64,000 bases of DNA from Rhodopseudomonas palustris (GTDB lineage: Bacteria > Pseudomonadota > Alphaproteobacteria > Rhizobiales > Xanthobacteraceae): contig NZ_QYYD01000014.1 of the NCBI RefSeq assembly GCF_003591005.1, forward strand, positions 1 through 64,000. Reading direction: 5' to 3'. The stretch's first letter is position 1. Every line of letters begins with the position of its first letter. Made by a program: the position numbers and the translations under genes. Below the pieces are notes generated by a model. That model was given only the letters and a program-made list of their open reading frames with translations. It was not told where the DNA came from and ran no database searches. Below are positions 49,092 through 64,000 of this stretch, piece after piece.

Positions 49092-49720
49092 AGCCGTAGC
49101 TCCTTGAGTGGGATCGAAGGTATATCACCGATCGGACCGCGGATCTGTGTCTGGTCGAGGCGGCTATCGAACCGCACCGGCACGTGAAACTGGCCGCCCC
49201 ATGTCAGCACTGCACCGGCGGGCGGCGCCGATCCGAACGTCACCACGCCGGACGCCAGGTCGACCACAAAACCGCTGAAGATCTGCGTGCCGTCGATGGC
49301 GATCAGGATCGAGCCGTAAGGCTTGGTGATGCGACGGTCGAAATGGTGCCCGGCGAACCGATAGCGCTTGCTCAGCGCAAAGCTGGTCGTCGTGCCGTCG
49401 CCGCCACCAAGGGCCTGGTCGATTGCGCGCGGCATCTGCTGCGGTGAGCAGGACCGGTAGTCGCTCCAATCCATCAGCCTGAAGCCGCGGAGCCGTCCCA
49501 TCGCGACATGATACAGCGACAGGATTTCGTAGAGTTCGTCCAGTTTTCGAACACCGTACTTAGCGTCGTAGGTGCGCAGCGGCGCGCTCCAGCTGGTGTT
49601 GCGCTGCTCGGCCCCGGAGCCGAGCGTCACGATCTCGGCCGGCCAATCCGGACCGCCGGCCGATCCGTGCGAGATGTGAACCGGAAAGATGACGTCATCC
49701 ATGAAGGAAGTATCCGCCAT
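49088..49720 (-). CDS. DUF2460 distal tail protein (GTA gp12-like)
   Basis: A 210-residue protein. FPVHISHGSAGGPDWPAEIVTLGSG at the start, and FRLMDWSDYRSC followed by ITKPYGSILI are the DUF2460/TIGR02217 hallmarks. It forms the ring joining the tail tube to the tip. It overlaps tape measure and DUF2163 genes by 1-4 bp, so the order tape measure - DUF2460 - DUF2163 - NlpC - hub equals that of RcGTA. Confidence 0.92.
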   Translation of the reverse strand: MADTSFMDDVIFPVHISHGSAGGPDWPAEIVTLGSGAEQRNTSWSAPLRTYDAKYGVRKLDELYEILSLYHVAMGRLRGFRLMDWSDYRSCSPQQMPRAIDQALGGGDGTTTSFALSKRYRFAGHHFDRRITKPYGSILIAIDGTQIFSGFVVDLASGVVTFGSAPPAGAVLTWGGQFHVPVRFDSRLDQTQIRGPIGDIPSIPLKELRL

Positions 49721-51741
49721 CAGCTGTACCGCTGCGCGCGCAAGATGGTGCGATTGACGCCGCGCATCATCGTGGCGCGATCTTCCGCGAAGGAGCGCGG
49801 ATCGGGCGTCGAAATATAAAGATTCGTGACGTGGGCCGCACCTGGCTGGCGATCGGGCGCGGCTGATTGCTGCGGCGGTGTCGCGTTTGATCCGAGTGCG
49901 GCGAGAAACGGCGGTGCAATGCCGACATAGCCGCCGCCCGCGTAGCCCGGAAGCCGATTTTCGTTGATCGCCTTCAACAGCGGGTAGTGCCGCGCGGTCG
50001 ACGCCGCGTTGATCACGAATTCCCGGCCGTGAACAAGACCCGCCACCGCAGTGGTCGGCATGTCGCCGGTGTAACCGCCGATCGCGAACAGTCCACCTGT
50101 CCCCGTCAACGACAGACCAGTGCCGGACGACGATCCGCCGAACAGGCTCCGCAGTACGCCACCGAGACCGCCGAGCGATCCTCCGAACAGACCACCCGAG
50201 CCGCCCAGCAGCGAGCCGAACAGGTTCGAGATCAGGTTGTCCAGAGCTTTACTGGCGAGTTTGTCGACCAGTCGATTGATGGCGTTCTCACCGGCCTTCT
50301 GGAAGGCTTCCCAAGCCGTCGCGCCGCTGCGCAGTTCGGCGCGGAAATCGGCGAGTGCGCCGGTAGCAATCTCAGTCGTGGTCGCCTTCAGCTCCTTCAT
50401 GGCTTCGTTGAAGCGGATCGTCCCGGCGATCGCGCTGTCCATCTGGGCCGTCACGTCGGTGCCGTAGACGCCGCGTAACCGATCCGCCACCACCGCGTCA
50501 GTCGAGCTGCGACCGAGTTGGCTCGCTTCGAACGCGAGGTCGGACTGCAACCGCAATTCGGCAGCTTTCTGCGCCGCTGCGCCCATGCGCTCGGCCAGCT
50601 TTGTAATTCGTTCGGTGAGCTCGGATGTGACGCCGCTGCCTGAGCGCTGCGCGGCATCGAGCAGAACGGTTTCGGCGCGCAACCGCGCGGTCTCGCCGAC
50701 GGACTTTCCAGCGGCCAGCGCCTCGGCCTCCTGCGCGGCGGTCTGGCGCTCGAAGGCCTTGATCAGCCGCTCGATCTCGCCGACGGCGTCGCCGCCGGTC
50801 TGGTCCCCGAGGCCGATGCGGCGGCGATCCTCGGGGCGCGGCTTGCCGTCGAGCAGGCGGCGGGCCGCTTCGTTCTGCTGGACGATCTTGTAGGCTTCGA
50901 ACGCCTCCTTGCCGAGATCAACCACCGTGCCAGCGGCCTTGCGCAGCGCTGGATCGAGCAGCGCGATGCGCGCGACCTCGTCCATGAACGCCTTGACGTC
51001 AGGCGTTCCTGTTTTGAAGCCGTCCTGCAGCTTGAACAGCGCATCCTCGAACGCGACAAACTCCGGCTTCACCTGCTTGACCCCGGACAGGAAGTCGCCG
51101 ATGTCGCCGAACGTGGTGGCGTTGGATATCATTTTGCCGACGCTGGTCTGCAGGGCGGCGGCATCCTTGATGACCTGCAGCTCCAGCTGAAGCCTGGTGA
51201 AGTCCTTACTTTGCTCGAAGAATTCGCCGGCGGTCCGGCCGGCGTCCCGATAGGCATCGCGCACCACGCCGATCAAACGGCCGTGCTCGTCCAATCGCTT
51301 CTGCGCGTTCTCGTTACCGGCACTGACGACGTTGAACAAAACCTGAGCCGCGGTGATCGCGAGGCCGATCCAACCCGTCAGGACCGGAATGGTGCCGGAC
51401 GCCTTGCCGACATCGACGAGGCCCTTGGCGAGCGTTGCCGCGCCACCCGCGGCCTTGGTGAAAGCGCTCGCCGAACCTCCGGCGTTTTCGGCAAGATGGC
51501 TGAGCTTCTCGGCAAGCTCGACTGACTGATTGATGACGTTGTCGTTTGCCGCGTGATGCTTGTTGGCCTCCTCGCTGGACCTCGCGAGCGCGCCTGCCGC
51601 ACGCTTGAAGCTCTCTTCAATCGATCTATTGGTGGCCTCGGTTTGCTTGCCAAGATCGGAAATTGCACGAGACGCAGCGACGGCGGCCTGTTCGGCGCCC
51701 TTGGCATCGCCGTCGATTTGTAACGAAACCCGCATGTTCAA
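49720..51741 (-). CDS. Phage tail tape measure protein
   Basis: A 673-residue protein. Long coiled-coil helices cover about 10-110 and 270-500; a hydrophobic segment TIPVLTGWIGLAITAAQVLFNVV lies near 125-147. The Gly-rich GSLLGGSGGLFGGSLGGLGG and the C-terminal FAIGGYTGDMPTTAVAGLVHGREFVINAAST are typical tape-measure ends. It sets tail length. At three bases per residue and about 1.5 angstrom per residue, a tail of roughly 100 nm is expected; this is an estimate. The start overlaps the chaperone gene by 4 bp. Confidence 0.9.
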   Translation of the reverse strand: MNMRVSLQIDGDAKGAEQAAVAASRAISDLGKQTEATNRSIEESFKRAAGALARSSEEANKHHAANDNVINQSVELAEKLSHLAENAGGSASAFTKAAGGAATLAKGLVDVGKASGTIPVLTGWIGLAITAAQVLFNVVSAGNENAQKRLDEHGRLIGVVRDAYRDAGRTAGEFFEQSKDFTRLQLELQVIKDAAALQTSVGKMISNATTFGDIGDFLSGVKQVKPEFVAFEDALFKLQDGFKTGTPDVKAFMDEVARIALLDPALRKAAGTVVDLGKEAFEAYKIVQQNEAARRLLDGKPRPEDRRRIGLGDQTGGDAVGEIERLIKAFERQTAAQEAEALAAGKSVGETARLRAETVLLDAAQRSGSGVTSELTERITKLAERMGAAAQKAAELRLQSDLAFEASQLGRSSTDAVVADRLRGVYGTDVTAQMDSAIAGTIRFNEAMKELKATTTEIATGALADFRAELRSGATAWEAFQKAGENAINRLVDKLASKALDNLISNLFGSLLGGSGGLFGGSLGGLGGVLRSLFGGSSSGTGLSLTGTGGLFAIGGYTGDMPTTAVAGLVHGREFVINAASTARHYPLLKAINENRLPGYAGGGYVGIAPPFLAALGSNATPPQQSAAPDRQPGAAHVTNLYISTPDPRSFAEDRATMMRGVNRTILRAQRYS

Positions 51742-52160
51742 TCGTTACTCTCGTTCAATGCGGTGCACGCCTCCGCTTCCATGACCCGCAGCCCCGCCCA
51801 TAGCGCGGGCGTCACCGCGATGGCCTCGGCGTCGAGTCCGGCGCGAGCGGCGGTGTAGTCCAGCCCGACGAAAACCGCGCGCGCCGGCGCGTCGCCGCCG
51901 CCAACCGAGACGACGCGCCATTGCGTGGCCACCGCGCAGAATGCTTTGACCGTGTCCCAGTTCTCCGGCCATACGCCGTCGGTCTCGTTCGAGGCTTCGA
52001 ACTGCGCGCAGGCTCCGGCCAGCGCGTCGAGCAGCTGCGCGAGTGACGTGTCGTTCAGTCCGAGCGCGCGAGCTTCGTCCATTGCAGCGGCGGCCTCGGC
52101 GTCGATCGTTCGGGCCGCGGCAGGCGCACCCTTGGCCCAGCGCCGCGCGGCCCATCTCAG
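51738..52160 (-). CDS. Tail chaperone extension (DUF1799-like), reached by -1 frameshift
   Basis: This frame is open from the slippery site to the tape measure start and codes for 140 residues, fused after the upstream 110-residue chaperone (250 in total). GVWPENWDTVKAFCAVATQWRVVS and GLDYTAARAGL are the DUF1799 pattern. An internal ATG at 52082 exists, but it has no clear ribosome site. This matches the lambda G/GT plan, where the T part binds the tape measure. Confidence 0.75.
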   Translation of the reverse strand: MRWAARRWAKGAPAAARTIDAEAAAAMDEARALGLNDTSLAQLLDALAGACAQFEASNETDGVWPENWDTVKAFCAVATQWRVVSVGGGDAPARAVFVGLDYTAARAGLDAEAIAVTPALWAGLRVMEAEACTALNESND

Positions 52161-52489
52161 TTTCCCGCTTGCGCATCGCCATTGACCGCCGCGAAGTACG
52201 CCGTCGCAATCGCCTGCCGCACGTGGCCCAACCGCAGCACAGCGTCGCGCAACTCGGTGCTGTAGGGCAGCGGCCTGTCGTCGACATCTGTGAGATCGTC
52301 GAGCCGACGGACGATCGCTTTCAGGAAGGCGGTGGTGCCGTCCGCCGTTTTCAGATCGAAACGAGCGACCGCGTCGATGTCGAGATAGTTGAAGCTGACC
52401 TTGAGGGTTTCCTTGACGTGACCGCCATCGGCCGGTGTCAGCACCGTGACGTCGCGAGAGAAGATGCGGTCGGCGGCGACCTTGAACAT
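52157..52489 (-). CDS. Tail assembly chaperone (lambda G-like)
   Basis: A 110-residue protein. It lies between the tail tube gene and the tape measure gene, exactly where tail chaperones occur. LTPADGGHVKETLKVSFNYLDIDAVARFDLKTADGT starts it, and it ends AVNGDAQAGN-stop. The last codons contain G GGA AAC, a canonical -1 slippery site, leading to the DUF1799-like frame. It should coat the tape measure during tail assembly. Confidence 0.82.
   Translation of the reverse strand: MFKVAADRIFSRDVTVLTPADGGHVKETLKVSFNYLDIDAVARFDLKTADGTTAFLKAIVRRLDDLTDVDDRPLPYSTELRDAVLRLGHVRQAIATAYFAAVNGDAQAGN
52160..52166 (-). promoter_or_regulatory. Programmed -1 frameshift site GGGAAAC
   Basis: Read on the minus strand, GCG-GGA-AAC-TGA ends the chaperone frame. 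The heptamer G GGA AAC fits X XXY YYZ, so two tRNAs can slip back to GGG AAA and avoid the stop. Lambda uses GGGAAAG in the same place. Confidence 0.75.
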
Positions 52490-52502
52490 GCGAGCCTCCT
52501 TG

Positions 52503-53441
52503 TCAGGTCAGCGTGATCGAAAACTGGTCGTTGCCGGATGCCGGCAGCGGCGTCAGCGTCAAGGGTCGCTCGGCAACGCCCTGGTTATTCTGATAGCCGG
52601 TCGGACGTCGGACTTGGCAAGCCGGCGTCGACACCGTGACGATGTTGCCGGCGGCGACGCCGTGTACGATGGTCGACGATGTCAGCGTCTGGGCGTTAGC
52701 CAGCACGTGCGGGTCGAACACCGACAGCGGGGTGACTTCGACCACGACATCGAGCGTTTCAGCCCGGTCGGTGATCAGGATCGACTCCTGACCCATCAGC
52801 AGCCGGGGCTCGACCTTGTTGCCGAACTTCAGGCTCCAGCTGCGCAGCACCAACGGCACCGCATCGATGGTGAAGGACGGTGTGTTGGCGGCGCTCGCGA
52901 CCAAGGGCTTCTTGAAGGCCGTCAATGACGGAGTCGGCCGAGCGACATCGGTCGGCGCCACCCAAAGGCCGGTAAAGGTCCAGCGGATCGCCGGCACCCC
53001 TTGAGCGTCGATGCTGAGTGTGGCGTCGCCGCGGGCGCCTTTCAGCGCGTGCAAGGTGCCGCCGAGCCAGAACTTAATGGTCAAGCTCTCCATCGCTTCG
53101 GAGATCGGCGAGTAAGCGACCGAGACACCGGTCGAAATCACCTCGGCACAGCCGCAGCCTCGCAGCAATGGTCCCCAAGCCGGCGCGCTGCCGGCGGCGC
53201 CGGAGCCCGCCAGCTCGGTCGAGAACTCAATAATGGTGTGCAGACCAGTCGGGATTGTCGCCTGGCCACCGAGATAGTGCTGGATGAGGTCGCGCGAGAC
53301 GTCCTGGCCTTCCATCGGCCGGATCGTGACGTCCTTGGCCAGGATCGCGTTGGCGGCACCGGTCAAAGTCGGGTCGACGCCGTAGCTGGATTCGAGCTTG
53401 GCCAGCAACACTTTTAAGCGGAAGAAGACGGGATCGACCAT
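52503..53441 (-). CDS. Major tail tube protein
   Basis: A 312-residue protein. FRLKVLLAKLESSYGVDPTLTGAANAIL, a start seen in siphophage tube proteins, is followed by beta-rich segments; no DNA- or sheath-type motif appears, which fits a non-contractile tail. It lies between the 47-residue protein and the chaperone, the usual place for the tube gene. Its N-terminal half matches the phage tail tube family in Mu-like siphophages. Confidence 0.8.
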   Translation of the reverse strand: MVDPVFFRLKVLLAKLESSYGVDPTLTGAANAILAKDVTIRPMEGQDVSRDLIQHYLGGQATIPTGLHTIIEFSTELAGSGAAGSAPAWGPLLRGCGCAEVISTGVSVAYSPISEAMESLTIKFWLGGTLHALKGARGDATLSIDAQGVPAIRWTFTGLWVAPTDVARPTPSLTAFKKPLVASAANTPSFTIDAVPLVLRSWSLKFGNKVEPRLLMGQESILITDRAETLDVVVEVTPLSVFDPHVLANAQTLTSSTIVHGVAAGNIVTVSTPACQVRRPTGYQNNQGVAERPLTLTPLPASGNDQFSITLT

Positions 53442-58825: not shown

Positions 58826-60478
58826 TTAACGTGTCCCGAGCCGTGCGGGATCTTCGATCCAGGCGAGGATTTTTCGGATGAACTCCCAAACGTCGCCTGC
58901 GGCGGGCGTGACATAAGAAGCCGAACTGGGATCGCCACCTAACCGTTCCAGCATGGCGACAGTCCAATCGGTTTTCTTTCCAGCGACACCGAGTTGTGGC
59001 AGCCAATTCTCCAGCTCGCCCCCTCTCACCGGAAATACGCCAAAGCGTTCGAGATTATCGAATAACTGACAGGCTGCGATTTGCTCATCTGCACCGAGAA
59101 GGTTGATGCCCCCATCGGTTTTCATGTTTTTTCCAGTGGCCTTGAACGCCTCATTAATTGCAGCTCGTTGTTGGCCATATCCGACGTGAAGAGCACTTGG
59201 TATCTGCGAGCTCTTGAGCCAGTCGCCCCAAGTACTCCCGCCGTCTTTCACAAAATCAAGATCAACTATCGCTGCAGCAGGAACGCCGAACTGACGAAGC
59301 GGCCCAACAATATCCCTGATCGTCTGCTTATTCTGCGCGTTGATGAATAATACGGAAGGGCAGCGCGGGTTTGCCTCCGAGATGCGGTGATAGATCTCCG
59401 CATAGAATGCGCGATCGTTGTCAGACTCGGTAACAACCACACCGTCGTGGAAGAGGCCGGAGACAACGTTAGCGCTCCGCATCAACGGCCGCTTGAAGAG
59501 CAACGATAGCGCTTGTGAGTCAATGATCCGCCCCCGCGATTTTCCTTGACTATATTCGAGGCGAACCACGCGCACCGATGCTGATGCTTGTATGCACCCC
59601 ATCAAAAAGTCTGCGCTATGTGTCGAAGCCATCAACACTCCGCCTCTTTCTGCTGAAAGTGCCGCCAGATTTTTACCTAGCTTGCGTGCAAGTGGCGGGT
59701 GTAAAAACGCCTCTGGTTCGTCGATCAACACGGTGTGAAAATCACCTGCCAACACAGCGGTCACGATTCCCGTGAACGCTTGCACACCGTCACTAGCATT
59801 TTGGATGTGGATCGCCTTGGCATAAAATTGTCTCGCTTCAGCATTTAGTGACTGCTCATCCCCCGGCGGGGGCTCGCTAGCTAGGCGGATGCGCAACTGT
59901 CCTAGGCTCGTCGGATCGACTACAAAAGTTAACCCGAAAGCATCTTCAATGAGCGTCCGAACCTTGCGGCGACGAGCGTCATCTTGAAAAAGGTGAGCCA
60001 ATACATTGCTGGGCGCCTGTAAGAGATCGCCACCCTCGCGATCGTTCGTTAGGTTGAACCTGGAGCGGCCATCGAGGCGGATAACGCCCCACCGCAACCA
60101 TTGCGTGACCAACCAATTTTTGTCGCTTCTATTGTTTACTATCTGCAGGGTGGTGTTCTCGTCGAACATCTCCGTTTCAAGCTGGCCGCCCGAATTAATC
60201 CAGCGGATTACATACCGGCCCAGCGGGATATCTCGCGGCCCGGAAATCTTCGCTCTTTCGATTGCTTGTTTCACCGTTTCAATCGTTGGCCATTCAACCT
60301 CGTAGTCTCTCAGAATAAGCGTTCCTCTCGGAAACGGATGCTCACGAAAGGCGCGCTCTACCTCGCGCAGCACCAGGCTCTTTCCCGAATTGTTAGGCCC
60401 TACAAAGAGCGTGATGCCCTCAACGGGAAGCACGAGCTCACCGGTCTCAGTAAATTGAAGCTTTATCGATTTCAGCAT
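58826..60478 (-). CDS. OLD-type ATPase with TOPRIM nuclease domain
   Basis: A 550-residue protein. The ABC-type ATPase has Walker A G27-P-N-N-S-G-K-S34, a signature-like SDGVQAF near 229-235, Walker B VLIDEPEAF with D253-E254, and H-loop STHSAD. The C-terminal TOPRIM has E351 in VVTESDNDRAFYAEI and D406-L-D408 in AIVDLDF, the metal ligands. It resembles class 1 OLD nucleases, which act in phage defence. No UvrD-type helicase (Gabija) adjoins it. Base composition is well below that of its phage neighbours, so it was likely acquired. Confidence 0.85.
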   Translation of the reverse strand: MLKSIKLQFTETGELVLPVEGITLFVGPNNSGKSLVLREVERAFREHPFPRGTLILRDYEVEWPTIETVKQAIERAKISGPRDIPLGRYVIRWINSGGQLETEMFDENTTLQIVNNRSDKNWLVTQWLRWGVIRLDGRSRFNLTNDREGGDLLQAPSNVLAHLFQDDARRRKVRTLIEDAFGLTFVVDPTSLGQLRIRLASEPPPGDEQSLNAEARQFYAKAIHIQNASDGVQAFTGIVTAVLAGDFHTVLIDEPEAFLHPPLARKLGKNLAALSAERGGVLMASTHSADFLMGCIQASASVRVVRLEYSQGKSRGRIIDSQALSLLFKRPLMRSANVVSGLFHDGVVVTESDNDRAFYAEIYHRISEANPRCPSVLFINAQNKQTIRDIVGPLRQFGVPAAAIVDLDFVKDGGSTWGDWLKSSQIPSALHVGYGQQRAAINEAFKATGKNMKTDGGINLLGADEQIAACQLFDNLERFGVFPVRGGELENWLPQLGVAGKKTDWTVAMLERLGGDPSSASYVTPAAGDVWEFIRKILAWIEDPARLGTR

Positions 60479-60538
60479 TTAATTCTCTTCCTAAGCGAAT
60501 TTTTGTCGTCGGCAAATCTAGCAGCTGAGTGCGGCTCG

Positions 60539-61174
60539 TCAGTCATTCTTTTGACCGCGAGCCACAACCATCAAAACTTCATTCGGTAACGGGCGCTGTA
60601 GCGCCGACGCCTCGGCCCACGGCGCGCGCATCCAGACATCGAACTCCTCGGCTGTGGTCAGGATCACCGGCATCGCCTTTGGATGCACGGGCGCCACGAC
60701 GTCGTTCGGCTCGGTGGTAAGGAAGCCGAACAGCCGGTGCGTGCCTTCGACAGGATTGGCCTTGGTGCCGCGGGTGCCGCTCCACTCCGTCCAAACGCCC
60801 GCGAAGGCGAGCAACGGCCGGCTGTCGTCGAGCGCGAACCAGGTCGGCGTCTTCTTCGGCTTGGTGTCGGCGTATTCGCAGAACGAACTGAACGGCACTA
60901 GGCAGCGGCTTTCGGGTTTGAGCCAGCGCCGCCAGTGCGGCGACTTGGTGTTGCGGATGTTGGTGATGGGCGCGCCGCCAAATTGCGGCGGTCCGGGCAT
61001 CCCCCACCGCATCATCGTCAGCTCTCGGTCGTCGTCAGGCCCGCGCACCACGGGTGCGAGGCCATCCGGAAACACCGCCGGTAGCGGCGGCAGATTGCCG
61101 GTGCTGTCCCGCATCACCCGGAACAGCTGCCGAATCGCATCCTGATTCTTGCTAATGCTGTAGAGATTGCACAT
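60539..61174 (-). CDS. yedK: SRAP/YedK abasic-site-processing protein
   Basis: A 211-residue protein. The ATG at 61174 gives [11 protein letters not shown] with catalytic Cys2, required to bond to abasic DNA; the upstream in-frame ATG is discarded for this reason. [29 protein letters not shown] and [10 protein letters not shown] are family motifs, including the catalytic Glu/His regions. It shields abasic sites in single-stranded DNA. It lies directly downstream of the OLD gene start, 60 bp apart, on the same strand. Confidence 0.93.
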
Positions 61175-61262
61175 TGGCGCGCGAGCTCTTGGGCGTGGAA
61201 CAGGTCGAGGCATCCAATCCTAGTGGCATTGCCTAGCTTGGCAAGGCGCGCTTGATGACAGG

Positions 61263-61676
61263 ATGGGGACCAAGTCACGCGAGGCGATCTTCGGCGGCCG
61301 CTTGCACGGTGCGCGGATCCGCGCCCGCGCCGCGCGCGAGGAAGTGGTTCTGGCGGTGCGCAAGGCCGACCGCGCCGAGGCCGAACAGTGGTCGCTTCAA
61401 CTGCAAACCTACGGTGGCCCGGCTCAGCCATCTCCGACCATTGGCCAATGTCTCAACGGCGGCCTTGGTTGGCTTGAGGTCGAGTGCCTGCGCTGCCGTA
61501 CCCAGGCCAGCCTGCCGCTCGACGCCATCCGCAGGACCCGCGACACGCCAATCTGGAAGCTTGAAGCCTCGCTCCGCTGCCGCAACTGCGCGACGCGGCG
61601 CTATCGGCCACCTGTAAAGTTGGTGAAGTTGACGGCAGAGCGGGAGATCGAGCGATACGCTTTGGATAGGCTGTAG
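61263..61676 (+). CDS. Hypothetical protein with two CxxC pairs
   Basis: A 137-residue protein. ECLRCRTQASLPLDAIRR and ASLRCRNCATRRYRPPVKLVKLT show two C-x2-C pairs, a likely zinc ribbon. This pattern is common in Bradyrhizobium and relatives, always as small proteins of unknown role. It faces the SRAP gene head-to-head. Confidence 0.72.
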   Translation: MGTKSREAIFGGRLHGARIRARAAREEVVLAVRKADRAEAEQWSLQLQTYGGPAQPSPTIGQCLNGGLGWLEVECLRCRTQASLPLDAIRRTRDTPIWKLEASLRCRNCATRRYRPPVKLVKLTAEREIERYALDRL

Positions 61677-62046
61677 CGGACGCGATGAGGCAGCTCGAGC
61701 TCTGGAACCATCGCGGCGGCCTGCGTGGACCAGATTCAATTCAGTCAGCATACAAAAGTCGAACTGCGCGACGCTGACTGGATAGTGAGAGGTTCGGTCG
61801 GAATTCTCCGAAACCAGACTCAATCAGTTCATTTTGTCCGAACATCGTCCCCTAAAAGTCCGCGATTTTTAGCTCGACAATGAGACAGAGAAGATTGTTT
61901 CTCTAAATCATGTAACAATCAACGTCGGAGATTATTCCCGTTGACGGCCGCTGATGACCCGGACACCACCGTTTGATTGAGGTTTCCGACAATAGTGCCA
62001 ATCGCTGCCACCCTGGCGGCTGTTCAAGCTAAAGGGGATTTGAGCG
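61677..62046. other. Gene-free stretch of lower GC
   Basis: This 370-bp stretch is richer in A/T than the phage block. Short repeats of TTGTCCGAACATC and TAACAATCAACG kind are seen, but no gene, RNA or terminator can be supported. Confidence 0.45.
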
Positions 62047-62247
62047 ATGCAATCTAATACACGACATTTCGACGCTTTATTTGATCATCTCGAAGCAGCC
62101 GCCGCGATTGCCACACTTCTGAATCTTAAGCATCTCCGCTATATCCTATCGATGGCAACGATCGAGTCGACTGAGCGCTTTGTCGAACTTTCAGGAGTCT
62201 CTGTGACAGACCTCTCAAGTTCGACAGAGGCCTCGCAGCGCGGCTAG
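62047..62247 (+). CDS. Small ORF of 66 residues, uncertain
   Basis: The ATG has AAAGGGGA eight bases upstream. The product HFDALFDHLEAAAAIATLLNLKHL-type helix is amphipathic. The 3' end overlaps the convergent AAA_13 gene by 33 bp. It may be a small partner or an accident of an open frame. Confidence 0.35.
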   Translation: MQSNTRHFDALFDHLEAAAAIATLLNLKHLRYILSMATIESTERFVELSGVSVTDLSSSTEASQRG

Positions 62248-64000
62248 ATGGCTCGGATCGACCGTTTCCATAAGGCCGATGAGGGCTTTAGTTGCCGCTT
62301 TACTTTCCTCAAGTGTCATCGATGAAAAGCCAATGAGATCGTCAAGACTGTCAGAATGTGATTCGAGCTGAACGAGACGCTCCAGCGCGCTCACTCGTTC
62401 GCCATCAAGTTTATGAAAGTCTTTTCTAAGCCGTTCCATTTTAGATGAAAATCCGTCGCTGCCCGGACAGCGGAAAGCGAGGAATACGTCCAAAACCCGC
62501 CGCAGAACGTTTGGCATCATATAAGCATACTCGTAGTCCGCGTCGCTGCTCGCCTCAAACTTGAGGACGTGGTCTACAAGATAGTGGTACTCCGAGTCAT
62601 ACTCGCGGAGTAATCTTGACATCTCTACAATTGTGGTGGCCCGCGTTTCTGTACCAGGCGTAAGTCTAACGTCGAGAAATAGAAAGCATGCGGAAGGCAA
62701 AGTTGCTTTGTTGCGCGGCCGATGGAAACGGCTCCATGCCTTCTTGAATTCGTTCATGCAATTCTGATTGTGGGTCATAACAAAAACTTGCGCAGCTTGC
62801 CCCAGTCGACTGATAAGCAGTGCGCAGGCGTAGTTAAGGGCTTTGCTATCCAAACTTGAAATCGGATCGTCCACAACGACTATGCAATCTTGTATTGACA
62901 GTCCGTCGGATTCGAGCGTGGACAGGAAATAACATATCGCGATTGCTGTCTTCTCGCCTTCACTAGGGCTGCCTTCAATTGGACGGCCTCGTCGATGAAT
63001 TTCGTATCCATTGTCTACGCTGACAATCGACAGTTCCTTGTGGCCAAGATATGCTTCGATTAGTCGATTAATCTTTTCAGCTGCTCGCCCGTGCTCTTTA
63101 ACGCGGATGCTCAATTCCCGCACCTTTGACTGAATATCCTCCAACGCAATCTTTGCAGCTTTGAATTCGTTTGCTGCGCTAGTCGCTTCGCTGAGGAGTT
63201 CGTCATAGCGAGCTTTGTTCTTGAACAAGTGGTCCCTGCGCAGTGCTAGTTGCGCTTCTTCCTGTCGCTTTAAGAAGCTTTCGCATGCCTCATTGTGCTT
63301 GTCGATTTGAAGGTTCAATACGCCAAACCAGGATTCGATCAGACTGAAAGCTCTGTCAGCTCGATCTATGACGGATGCGCAATCCTCAGGGTCAGGCATC
63401 AAGGTGGGTCTGGCCAGTTTTTCTTCAATGTCAGATATTGCTGTGTCAAAAACTTCTGCAATTGCAGCCGAGAGCGCATCCTTGATCGAATTGGAAGCCT
63501 TGTCGTAAGCTTCACGTCGATCCGCTATGATGTCCTTGGGGGACGGAATTGCCAAAGCTAATTGCTGAAAGTAAATCCGTTCCTTTTCGAACGTTTGCTT
63601 TGCTGCGGTGAGCGCGTTTTGAAATTGTGCGAAACCCTCGTCTAAGGCGCTTGCCAATAGTTCTTTTCGTTTGGCCGATAGCGGACCGCCGCACAGCAGA
63701 CACTCGTTAAGATCGTGGTCCCCGTGGTACTCCGCCCCTTCGTGCACCCAACGTAACATTTCCGAATGTGTCTCTAATTCGGGAATTATCGTGAGACTGG
63801 GCGTCTCCTGCATCAAGCTTCCTGTCTTCAGAAGAACGTCGCGTATTGATGCCGTGTCGAAGTCCAGTTTCAGAAGTGCCGGCATCGCCTCTTCGCGCCG
63901 GCAGACCTCCCTTACCGCCGACAGAATCGTCTCGTCGAGCAACGATTTCGCGTCAAGTTCGAGTGTCGCATAGTCCGTGGTTAGTTGTGGAGCTTCGTAT
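62215..64000 (-). CDS. AAA_13 ATPase (RloC/PrrC-like), 5' part outside the window
   Basis: The frame stays open to the window edge, so the N-terminus with Walker A is missing. Numbering from the TTG at 63942: a zinc-hook-like C81-L-L-C84 in ECLLCGGPLS flanked by coiled coils (90-300), ABC signature SPSEGEKTAIAI (about 324-335), Walker B CIVVVDDPISSLD (353-365), H392 in MTHNQ. The C-terminal 130 residues carry MPNVLRRVLDVFL and R522-x6-H529 in RLVQLESHS, fitting a HEPN-type RNase. RloC and PrrC are such anticodon nucleases. GC is low here, suggesting transfer. Confidence 0.82.
   Translation of the reverse strand, partial: YEAPQLTTDYATLELDAKSLLDETILSAVREVCRREEAMPALLKLDFDTASIRDVLLKTGSLMQETPSLTIIPELETHSEMLRWVHEGAEYHGDHDLNECLLCGGPLSAKRKELLASALDEGFAQFQNALTAAKQTFEKERIYFQQLALAIPSPKDIIADRREAYDKASNSIKDALSAAIAEVFDTAISDIEEKLARPTLMPDPEDCASVIDRADRAFSLIESWFGVLNLQIDKHNEACESFLKRQEEAQLALRRDHLFKNKARYDELLSEATSAANEFKAAKIALEDIQSKVRELSIRVKEHGRAAEKINRLIEAYLGHKELSIVSVDNGYEIHRRGRPIEGSPSEGEKTAIAICYFLSTLESDGLSIQDCIVVVDDPISSLDSKALNYACALLISRLGQAAQVFVMTHNQNCMNEFKKAWSRFHRPRNKATLPSACFLFLDVRLTPGTETRATTIVEMSRLLREYDSEYHYLVDHVLKFEASSDADYEYAYMMPNVLRRVLDVFLAFRCPGSDGFSSKMERLRKDFHKLDGERVSALERLVQLESHSDSLDDLIGFSSMTLEESKAATKALIGLMETVDPSHLAALRGLCRT

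Follow-up and report, generated by a model that had tools for sequence, protein, structure and literature searches.

A predicted -1 frameshift giving two tail assembly chaperones in a Rhodopseudomonas palustris prophage, and the stop codon that abuts its slippery site in the DUF1799 family

Introduction

Does one tail gene of a prophage in Rhodopseudomonas palustris give rise to two proteins? The locus that raises the question lies on the minus strand of a 64,000-nucleotide stretch (positions 1 to 64,000 of contig NZ_QYYD01000014.1, RefSeq assembly GCF_003591005.1), called the window here in its full length. A gene for a 110-residue tail assembly chaperone ends there on a candidate slippery heptamer, GGGAAAC, directly followed by its TGA stop codon, and a second open frame, encoding a DUF1799 domain, runs on from the same point towards the tape measure gene. 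Our answer is that two tail assembly chaperones very probably share one start here, the longer arising through programmed -1 frameshifting as in lambda G/GT, a slip that we infer from the reading frames and from comparison with relatives.

The site and its conservation

The 3' end of the chaperone open reading frame (ORF) is GCG GGA AAC TGA, which puts GGGAAAC in the X_XXY_YYZ register and agrees with an earlier note on this DNA, made from the sequence alone, that had placed the heptamer at 52166-52160 in frame directly before the TGA. After the slip, the -1 frame would read GGG AAA CTG AGA TGG and stay open until the TGA at 51740-51738, with the last base of the heptamer also the first base of the extension and hence read twice. 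The predicted fusion has 110 + 140 = 250 residues, the length that the note had proposed. Its further claim, that the -1 frame is open up to the tape measure start and carries DUF1799, also holds: the TGA of the extension overlaps one candidate start of the tape measure gene (TTG 51741) and ends 2 bases short of the other (ATG 51735), and the DUF1799 match scores 50.3 bits (E 2.8e-13) against a curated cut-off of 26 bits. The cassette as a whole sits between a tail protein gene, the major tail gene by its position, and the tape measure gene.

By itself the open -1 frame is little proof, because the DNA is GC-rich; at this locus the -1 frame is open for 254 codons and the third frame for 191. 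Nor is the motif rare: the 5.6-Mb genome contains 321 copies of GGGAAAC and 4 of GGGAAACTGA, against 187 and 2 for the reversed controls. Hence a single motif is weak evidence, and conservation is the deciding test.

Loci for comparison were selected by patterns and a profile that lie within DUF1799. Viral contigs were scanned with a peptide pattern inside the domain, and the best 80 of 458 relatives were kept; a search with Pfam through 198 genomes from the window's own family gave 9 loci besides the window. Together with nine phages and the window, these made 99 loci, or 71 after dereplication at 90%, L010 (identical here to L009) and L103 (the window itself) having been removed before that count. 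XXXAAAC stands in the right frame in 70 of the 71 (56 GGGAAAC, 14 AAAAAAC), and the one miss, L038, is cut by a contig end and was left out of the codon, fold and 94-site analyses given below. At 60 of the 70 the stop abuts the heptamer, at 8 it comes one codon later and at 2 twelve codons later. Pfam scans widened to the class (385 genomes) and the phylum (398 genomes) added 57 places other than our own, 48 of them with loci examined, including two (L125 and L156) that score below the Pfam cut-off. All 48 have a slippery heptamer (46 XXXAAAC, 1 AAAAAAT, 1 AAAAAAG), with the stop abutting in 40. When the 118 sites are collapsed at 70% identity to 94, XXXAAAC is found in 92, an abutting stop in 82 and a T after the heptamer in 92, and in the other two phases of the same 500-nt stretches the combination of XXXYYY and abutting stop occurs at 0 of 118 and 0 of 118. 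The earlier note had held that relatives lacking the heptamer would speak against a frameshift, an objection for which this survey offers no support.

Deposited phages tell the same story on a smaller scale. Of 26 phage records that match DUF1799, 10 were examined (RC1 and RS1 being identical at the site), and 10 of 10 have an in-frame XXXAAAC where the chaperone gene ends, GGGAAAC in 8 and AAAAAAC in 2; the stop abuts in 9, PseuP_222 having one codon between. Among loci with a non-abutting stop, L113, L119, L129, L145, L155, L039 and L046 have TCC, TCG or TAC after the heptamer, so that the T and the -1 frame Leu are retained. The exceptions to the T are L147 (AAC) and L156 (GGA).

The control family was PF06223, which we take to be the domain of lambda T and which differs from DUF1799. 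Its loci, drawn from 398 genomes, have a site in 18 of 20, with an abutting stop in 3 of 20 and a median distance to the stop of 7 codons among the 18. The difference from the 40 of 48 seen for DUF1799 has a Fisher p of 2e-7, neither set being dereplicated. Among DUF1799 loci dereplicated at 70%, 82 of 94 have the stop abutting, so that stop-abutment is the rule there; in the lambda-T family it is rare.

Codon constraint, downstream structure and protein evidence

Counting a site required X as the last base of the codon ahead of Gly or Lys, and agreement at the sites found is therefore built in. What is not built in is the presence of a site in all 70 untruncated loci, in 20 different combinations of codon and heptamer; under local codon use, the joint log10 probability that this third base agrees with X in 70 of 70 is -31.4, relatedness ignored. 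Moreover, the Gly codon at the 56 GGGAAAC sites is GGA, which accounts for 29 of the 393 Gly codons in the remainder of the same chaperone genes. Both features, the matching third base and the rare Gly codon, fit the needs of slippage, and protein sequence alone would not require them.

For the stop codon, one candidate explanation, that its position is a mere by-product of a conserved Leu in the -1 frame, was tried and rejected as explaining part only. A Leu codon (CTN) follows the slip in 70 of 70 loci, so that a T is forced after the heptamer and part of the stop-abutment is accounted for. Codon bias beyond the Leu counts against the by-product explanation: the third base of the CTN codon is A in 55 of 70, and an Arg following the Leu is AGA or AGG in 13 of 15 cases, compared with 50 of 626 Arg codons elsewhere in T (p 5e-13). 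From these two biases, the abutting stop itself seems to be under selection. Economy, in the sense that nothing is gained by extending G beyond the slip, remains as an alternative to a recoding role of the stop.

Across the family, a stable stem-loop just past the heptamer is favoured beyond codon choice. In the 42 nt beginning 5 nt past the heptamer, the mean z over the 70 loci against synonymous shuffles is -1.11, with 30 of 70 below -1.5 and a Wilcoxon p of 3e-9 that is optimistic, the loci being related; in windows 51, 102 and 153 bases further on, the mean z is 0.07, 0.14 and 0.31. Dinucleotide shuffles give -1.07 for the same 42 nt versus -0.38 to 0.16 in four other windows. The excess stability lies in two groups, GGGAAAC with an abutting stop (mean z -1.35, n 47) and AAAAAAC (-1.02, n 14), and is absent from GGGAAAC with a later stop (-0.32, n 9). 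The stem-loop of our own locus, at 52153-52112, has a folding energy of -30.4 kcal/mol and a z of -1.57 against dinucleotide shuffles.

On the protein side, alignments indicate that the -1 frame is conserved as protein among relatives. AlphaFold2 models reach a mean predicted confidence (pLDDT) of 88.2 for the chaperone and 90.7 for the extension. Against BFVD, the chaperone model finds three unnamed predicted viral proteins at E < 0.001 and, more weakly, the tape measure chaperones of phages Solomon, Ec_L1 and Scapp (E 0.026-0.11) and the pre-tape measure chaperone of CcrColossus (E 0.21). In the ten-phage set, phrog_17368 matches both halves (G in 6 of 10, T in 7 of 10), as might be expected of a family of joined proteins. 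Positions 76-123 of the extension profile A4 match ribosomal protein L20 weakly (E 0.005), probably by chance. The virion proteome of phage vB_ThpS-P1 lists 0 peptides for ORF43 and ORF44 and 84 for ORF45, the tape measure protein (PMC5488378); by way of the reversed numbering, ORF43 and ORF44 would be the two chaperone-part genes, and their absence from virions would match the behaviour of lambda-type chaperones.

Alternative explanations

Several observations weigh against a lambda-type frameshift at this locus. The stem-loop in the window is unexceptional when judged by synonymous shuffles (z -0.96 to 0.57 by length; -0.58 and -0.11 at two near offsets), and RNAalifold, run on 27 chosen loci, found no common structure or covariation. 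The window chaperone has no match to Pfam Phage_TAC_4 (PF08748) at E limits of 1 and 0.01, a family that matches 8 of 10 and 22 of 46 aligned chaperones. The likeness to lambda gpG is one of gene arrangement, with homology at most possible. For the part of the family with AAAAAAC, A_AAA_AAC is less shifty in Escherichia coli than A_AAA_AAG (PMC5009743). Possible start codons for a separate second gene belong on the same side: among the 69 dereplicated loci with a recognisable TQW/SQW motif, 49 have some ATG, GTG or TTG in the -1 frame between heptamer and domain, 30 of them ATG, and the window has an in-frame ATG at 52082, preceded only by a distant GAGG, so that a separate start is possible for the window alone.

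These start codons, and the several deposits that annotate the DUF1799 part as a gene of its own, are what speaks for a separate gene, translated from its own start or by re-initiation after the chaperone stop. Yet 20 of the 69 loci have no ATG, GTG or TTG before the domain, and a Shine-Dalgarno-like motif stands ahead of such a start codon in 4 of 69. In the RC1 and RS1 deposits the second gene is forced to begin at a CTG that starts on the last base of the heptamer, a sign of annotation missing the frameshift, and a separate start leaves the conserved XXXAAAC unexplained. We regard a separate gene as very improbable, and the earlier note's other possible objection, a well-supported ribosome start for the DUF1799 part, gains no support from these counts. 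Less probable still is that the heptamer is kept merely for the residues it encodes, Gly-Asn at the end of one protein and Gly-Lys-Leu in the other, with no slippage at all. The invariance of K and L in the T alignments and of the terminal N in the G alignments is what one would then see; but conservation extends to the rare GGA codon and to the last position of the codon ahead of it, and with neither slippage nor a start there is no T protein to be constrained. Slippage of the transcribing polymerase instead of the ribosome is suggested by the A6C sites in part of the family, but the window site is G3A3 only and transcriptional slippage has been tied to A runs of more than 7 (PMC3711429), which makes this the least credible reading, with hardly any probability left to it.

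A mechanism in outline

With a ribosomal -1 frameshift as the preferred reading, most ribosomes would make the 110-residue protein and stop at the TGA. On G_GGA_AAC a minority would move back by one base, tRNA-Gly pairing anew with GGG and tRNA-Asn with AAA; these ribosomes would then read on in the -1 frame to yield the 250-residue fusion with DUF1799. In lambda, the tape measure protein is bound by many gpG copies and gpGT attaches through its T part to the major tail subunit, gpG and gpGT being made at a ratio of 30:1 and neither being present in the virion (PMC5009743); by analogy, the short form here would coat the tape measure protein and the fusion would recruit the major tail subunit. 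Ribosomes are probably slowed by the stem-loop that begins 6 nt past the heptamer. When AAC is in the P site, TGA would be the codon in the A site, where release factor 2 is probably a competitor of the slip and one of the influences on the ratio of the two products. That such competition would keep the fusion rare is suggested because, in a bacterial system, a stop right after the human immunodeficiency virus (HIV) slip site lowered slippage, and raised release factor 2 abolished it (PMC4373837).

A bolder proposal is that DUF1799 cassettes form a distinct and widespread class of bacterial -1 signals in which the stop is a working part, with the stop in the A site, the tRNAs slipping in the E and P sites, and release factor availability setting the chaperone ratio. 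This we offer tentatively, judging it possible though rather less than an even bet. The family provides natural sites at which to ask whether bacterial -1 slippage can follow translocation with a release factor competing.

Genomic surroundings and annotation

Features of the locus are collected in Table 1. Upstream of the cassette lie genes for a Mu-like gpT, a Mu-like protease, gp36, Phage_tail_S and a tail terminator; downstream, after the tape measure gene, come DUF2460, a phiJL001 Gp84/BR0599 protein, NlpC/P60 and a TIM-barrel protein of the gene transfer agent (GTA) type (GTA_TIM). The prophage is one with a Mu-like head and a GTA-like tail tip, and Pfam and PHROG matches of the flanking genes bear out the earlier note's description of this context. 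No portal gene was seen among the window ORFs scanned. Beside the Mu-like protease gene, on the minus strand, are an AAA ATPase with an OLD-like TOPRIM (58826-60478), an SRAP peptidase (60539-61213) and an AAA_13 protein (62215-63942); this part of the head region (58826-63942) may hold cargo or defence genes.

Table 1. Positions of the chaperone cassette and its neighbours in the window
Feature	Positions	Strand	Basis
AGGAGG ribosome-binding motif of the chaperone gene	52495..52500	-	Sequence; 5 nt ahead of ATG
Tail assembly chaperone (G-like), zero frame, 110 residues	52157..52489	-	ORF; phrog_569 E 2e-12; BFVD fold likeness
Slippery heptamer G_GGA_AAC	52160..52166	-	Sequence and conservation
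Zero-frame stop TGA touching the heptamer	52157..52159	-	Sequence
Predicted stem-loop, -30.4 kcal/mol, starting 6 nt past the heptamer	52112..52153	-	Folding
-1 frame extension (T-like), 140 codons from CTG, then TGA	51738..52160	-	Sequence
DUF1799 (PF08809), -1 frame	51762..51977	-	Pfam profile; extension phrog_680 E 2.6e-20
Tape measure protein, start at TTG 51741 or ATG 51735	49720..51741	-	PHROG tape measure families
Tail protein in the major-tail position (phrog_290, named there 'minor tail protein')	52503..53441	-	Role by position

Among the phages of the collection, recognisable relatives of the chaperone are found in RC1 and RS1 only, and the best DUF1799 matches by E-value are in RC1, RS1 and vB_ThpS-P1; RC1 and vB_ThpS-P1 have been placed in a Mu-like head group (PMC5488378). 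A tape measure gene, or a gene of like size and place, follows the cassette in 9 of the 10 phage records, PS-1 being the exception. In Pseudomonas phage PS-1 (L016, 2775-5114), partition and anti-repressor genes are annotated after the chaperone pair, with no tape measure gene in the stretch. An extra ORF lies between the tail protein and the chaperone in vB_ThpS-P1, Smarc2 and HK639.

Annotation often misses the joined product. One of the 10 phage records, that of Serratia phage Smarc2, joins both parts as a frameshift protein; others label the halves hypothetical or tape measure protein. PHROGs 569, 680 and 17368 label both halves 'tail length tape measure protein', and the same label stands on one or both halves in L009, L010, L014, L016 and L018. 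On chaperone halves this label is a naming error worth correcting.

Comparison with known systems

The lambda heptamer is GGGAAAG, with the stop some codons later, unlike the abutting TGA in the window. The earlier note had described the lambda G/GT arrangement with a different slippery heptamer: the arrangement stands, down to a low-abundance fusion of the lambda kind (PMC5009743), and the idea that GGGAAAC is unusual does not, since it has already been reported in KL1, CcrColossus and HCTV-1 (PMC3483164, PMC3556154, PMC5009743). A stop codon in direct contact with the heptamer is the more distinctive feature, and this too is not new in kind, having been published for KL1 and Loki. In Burkholderia phage KL1, gp18 and gp19 (142 and 264 residues) are related by a predicted -1 shift at a GGGAAAC directly 5' of the TGA of the shorter protein; unlike the window, KL1 has an extra gene before the tape measure gene (PMC3483164). 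In Acinetobacter phage Loki the heptamer of gp12/gp13 likewise adjoins the chaperone stop codon, but it is AAAAAAC, and an extra gene again precedes the tape measure gene (PMC5313236). Nearest to the window are RC1, Rhodovulum phage RS1 and Thiobacimonas phage vB_ThpS-P1, with related G and T proteins and GGGAAAC followed by TGA; unlike the predicted fusion, the deposits of Rhodobacter phage RC1, RS1 and vB_ThpS-P1 give two separate genes, and PMC5488378 does not use the word 'frameshift' anywhere in its main text.

Our locus adds a well-supported predicted fusion product of a type often missed in annotation. For two sets of tail chaperone frameshifts, the mean distance from slip to stop has been given as 26 and 36 nt (PMC10885494). 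A statement that the whole DUF1799 family follows the stop-abutment rule was not found in the portions of the literature searched, a search whose scope did not take in Xu et al. 2004. The finding is ordinary in kind and well founded, and it points to a family trait, stop-abutment, that is worth a test. Rous sarcoma virus (RSV) and barley yellow dwarf virus (BYDV) naturally carry a stop as the codon after the slip site (PMC4373837). They resemble the window in that the stop is the next codon after the heptamer and differ from it in being eukaryotic RNA viruses, unrelated to it. If the stop proves to be a working part of the signal, DUF1799 cassettes would be the natural bacterial version of a design known from RSV and BYDV and, in artificial form, from the HIV site in E. 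coli.
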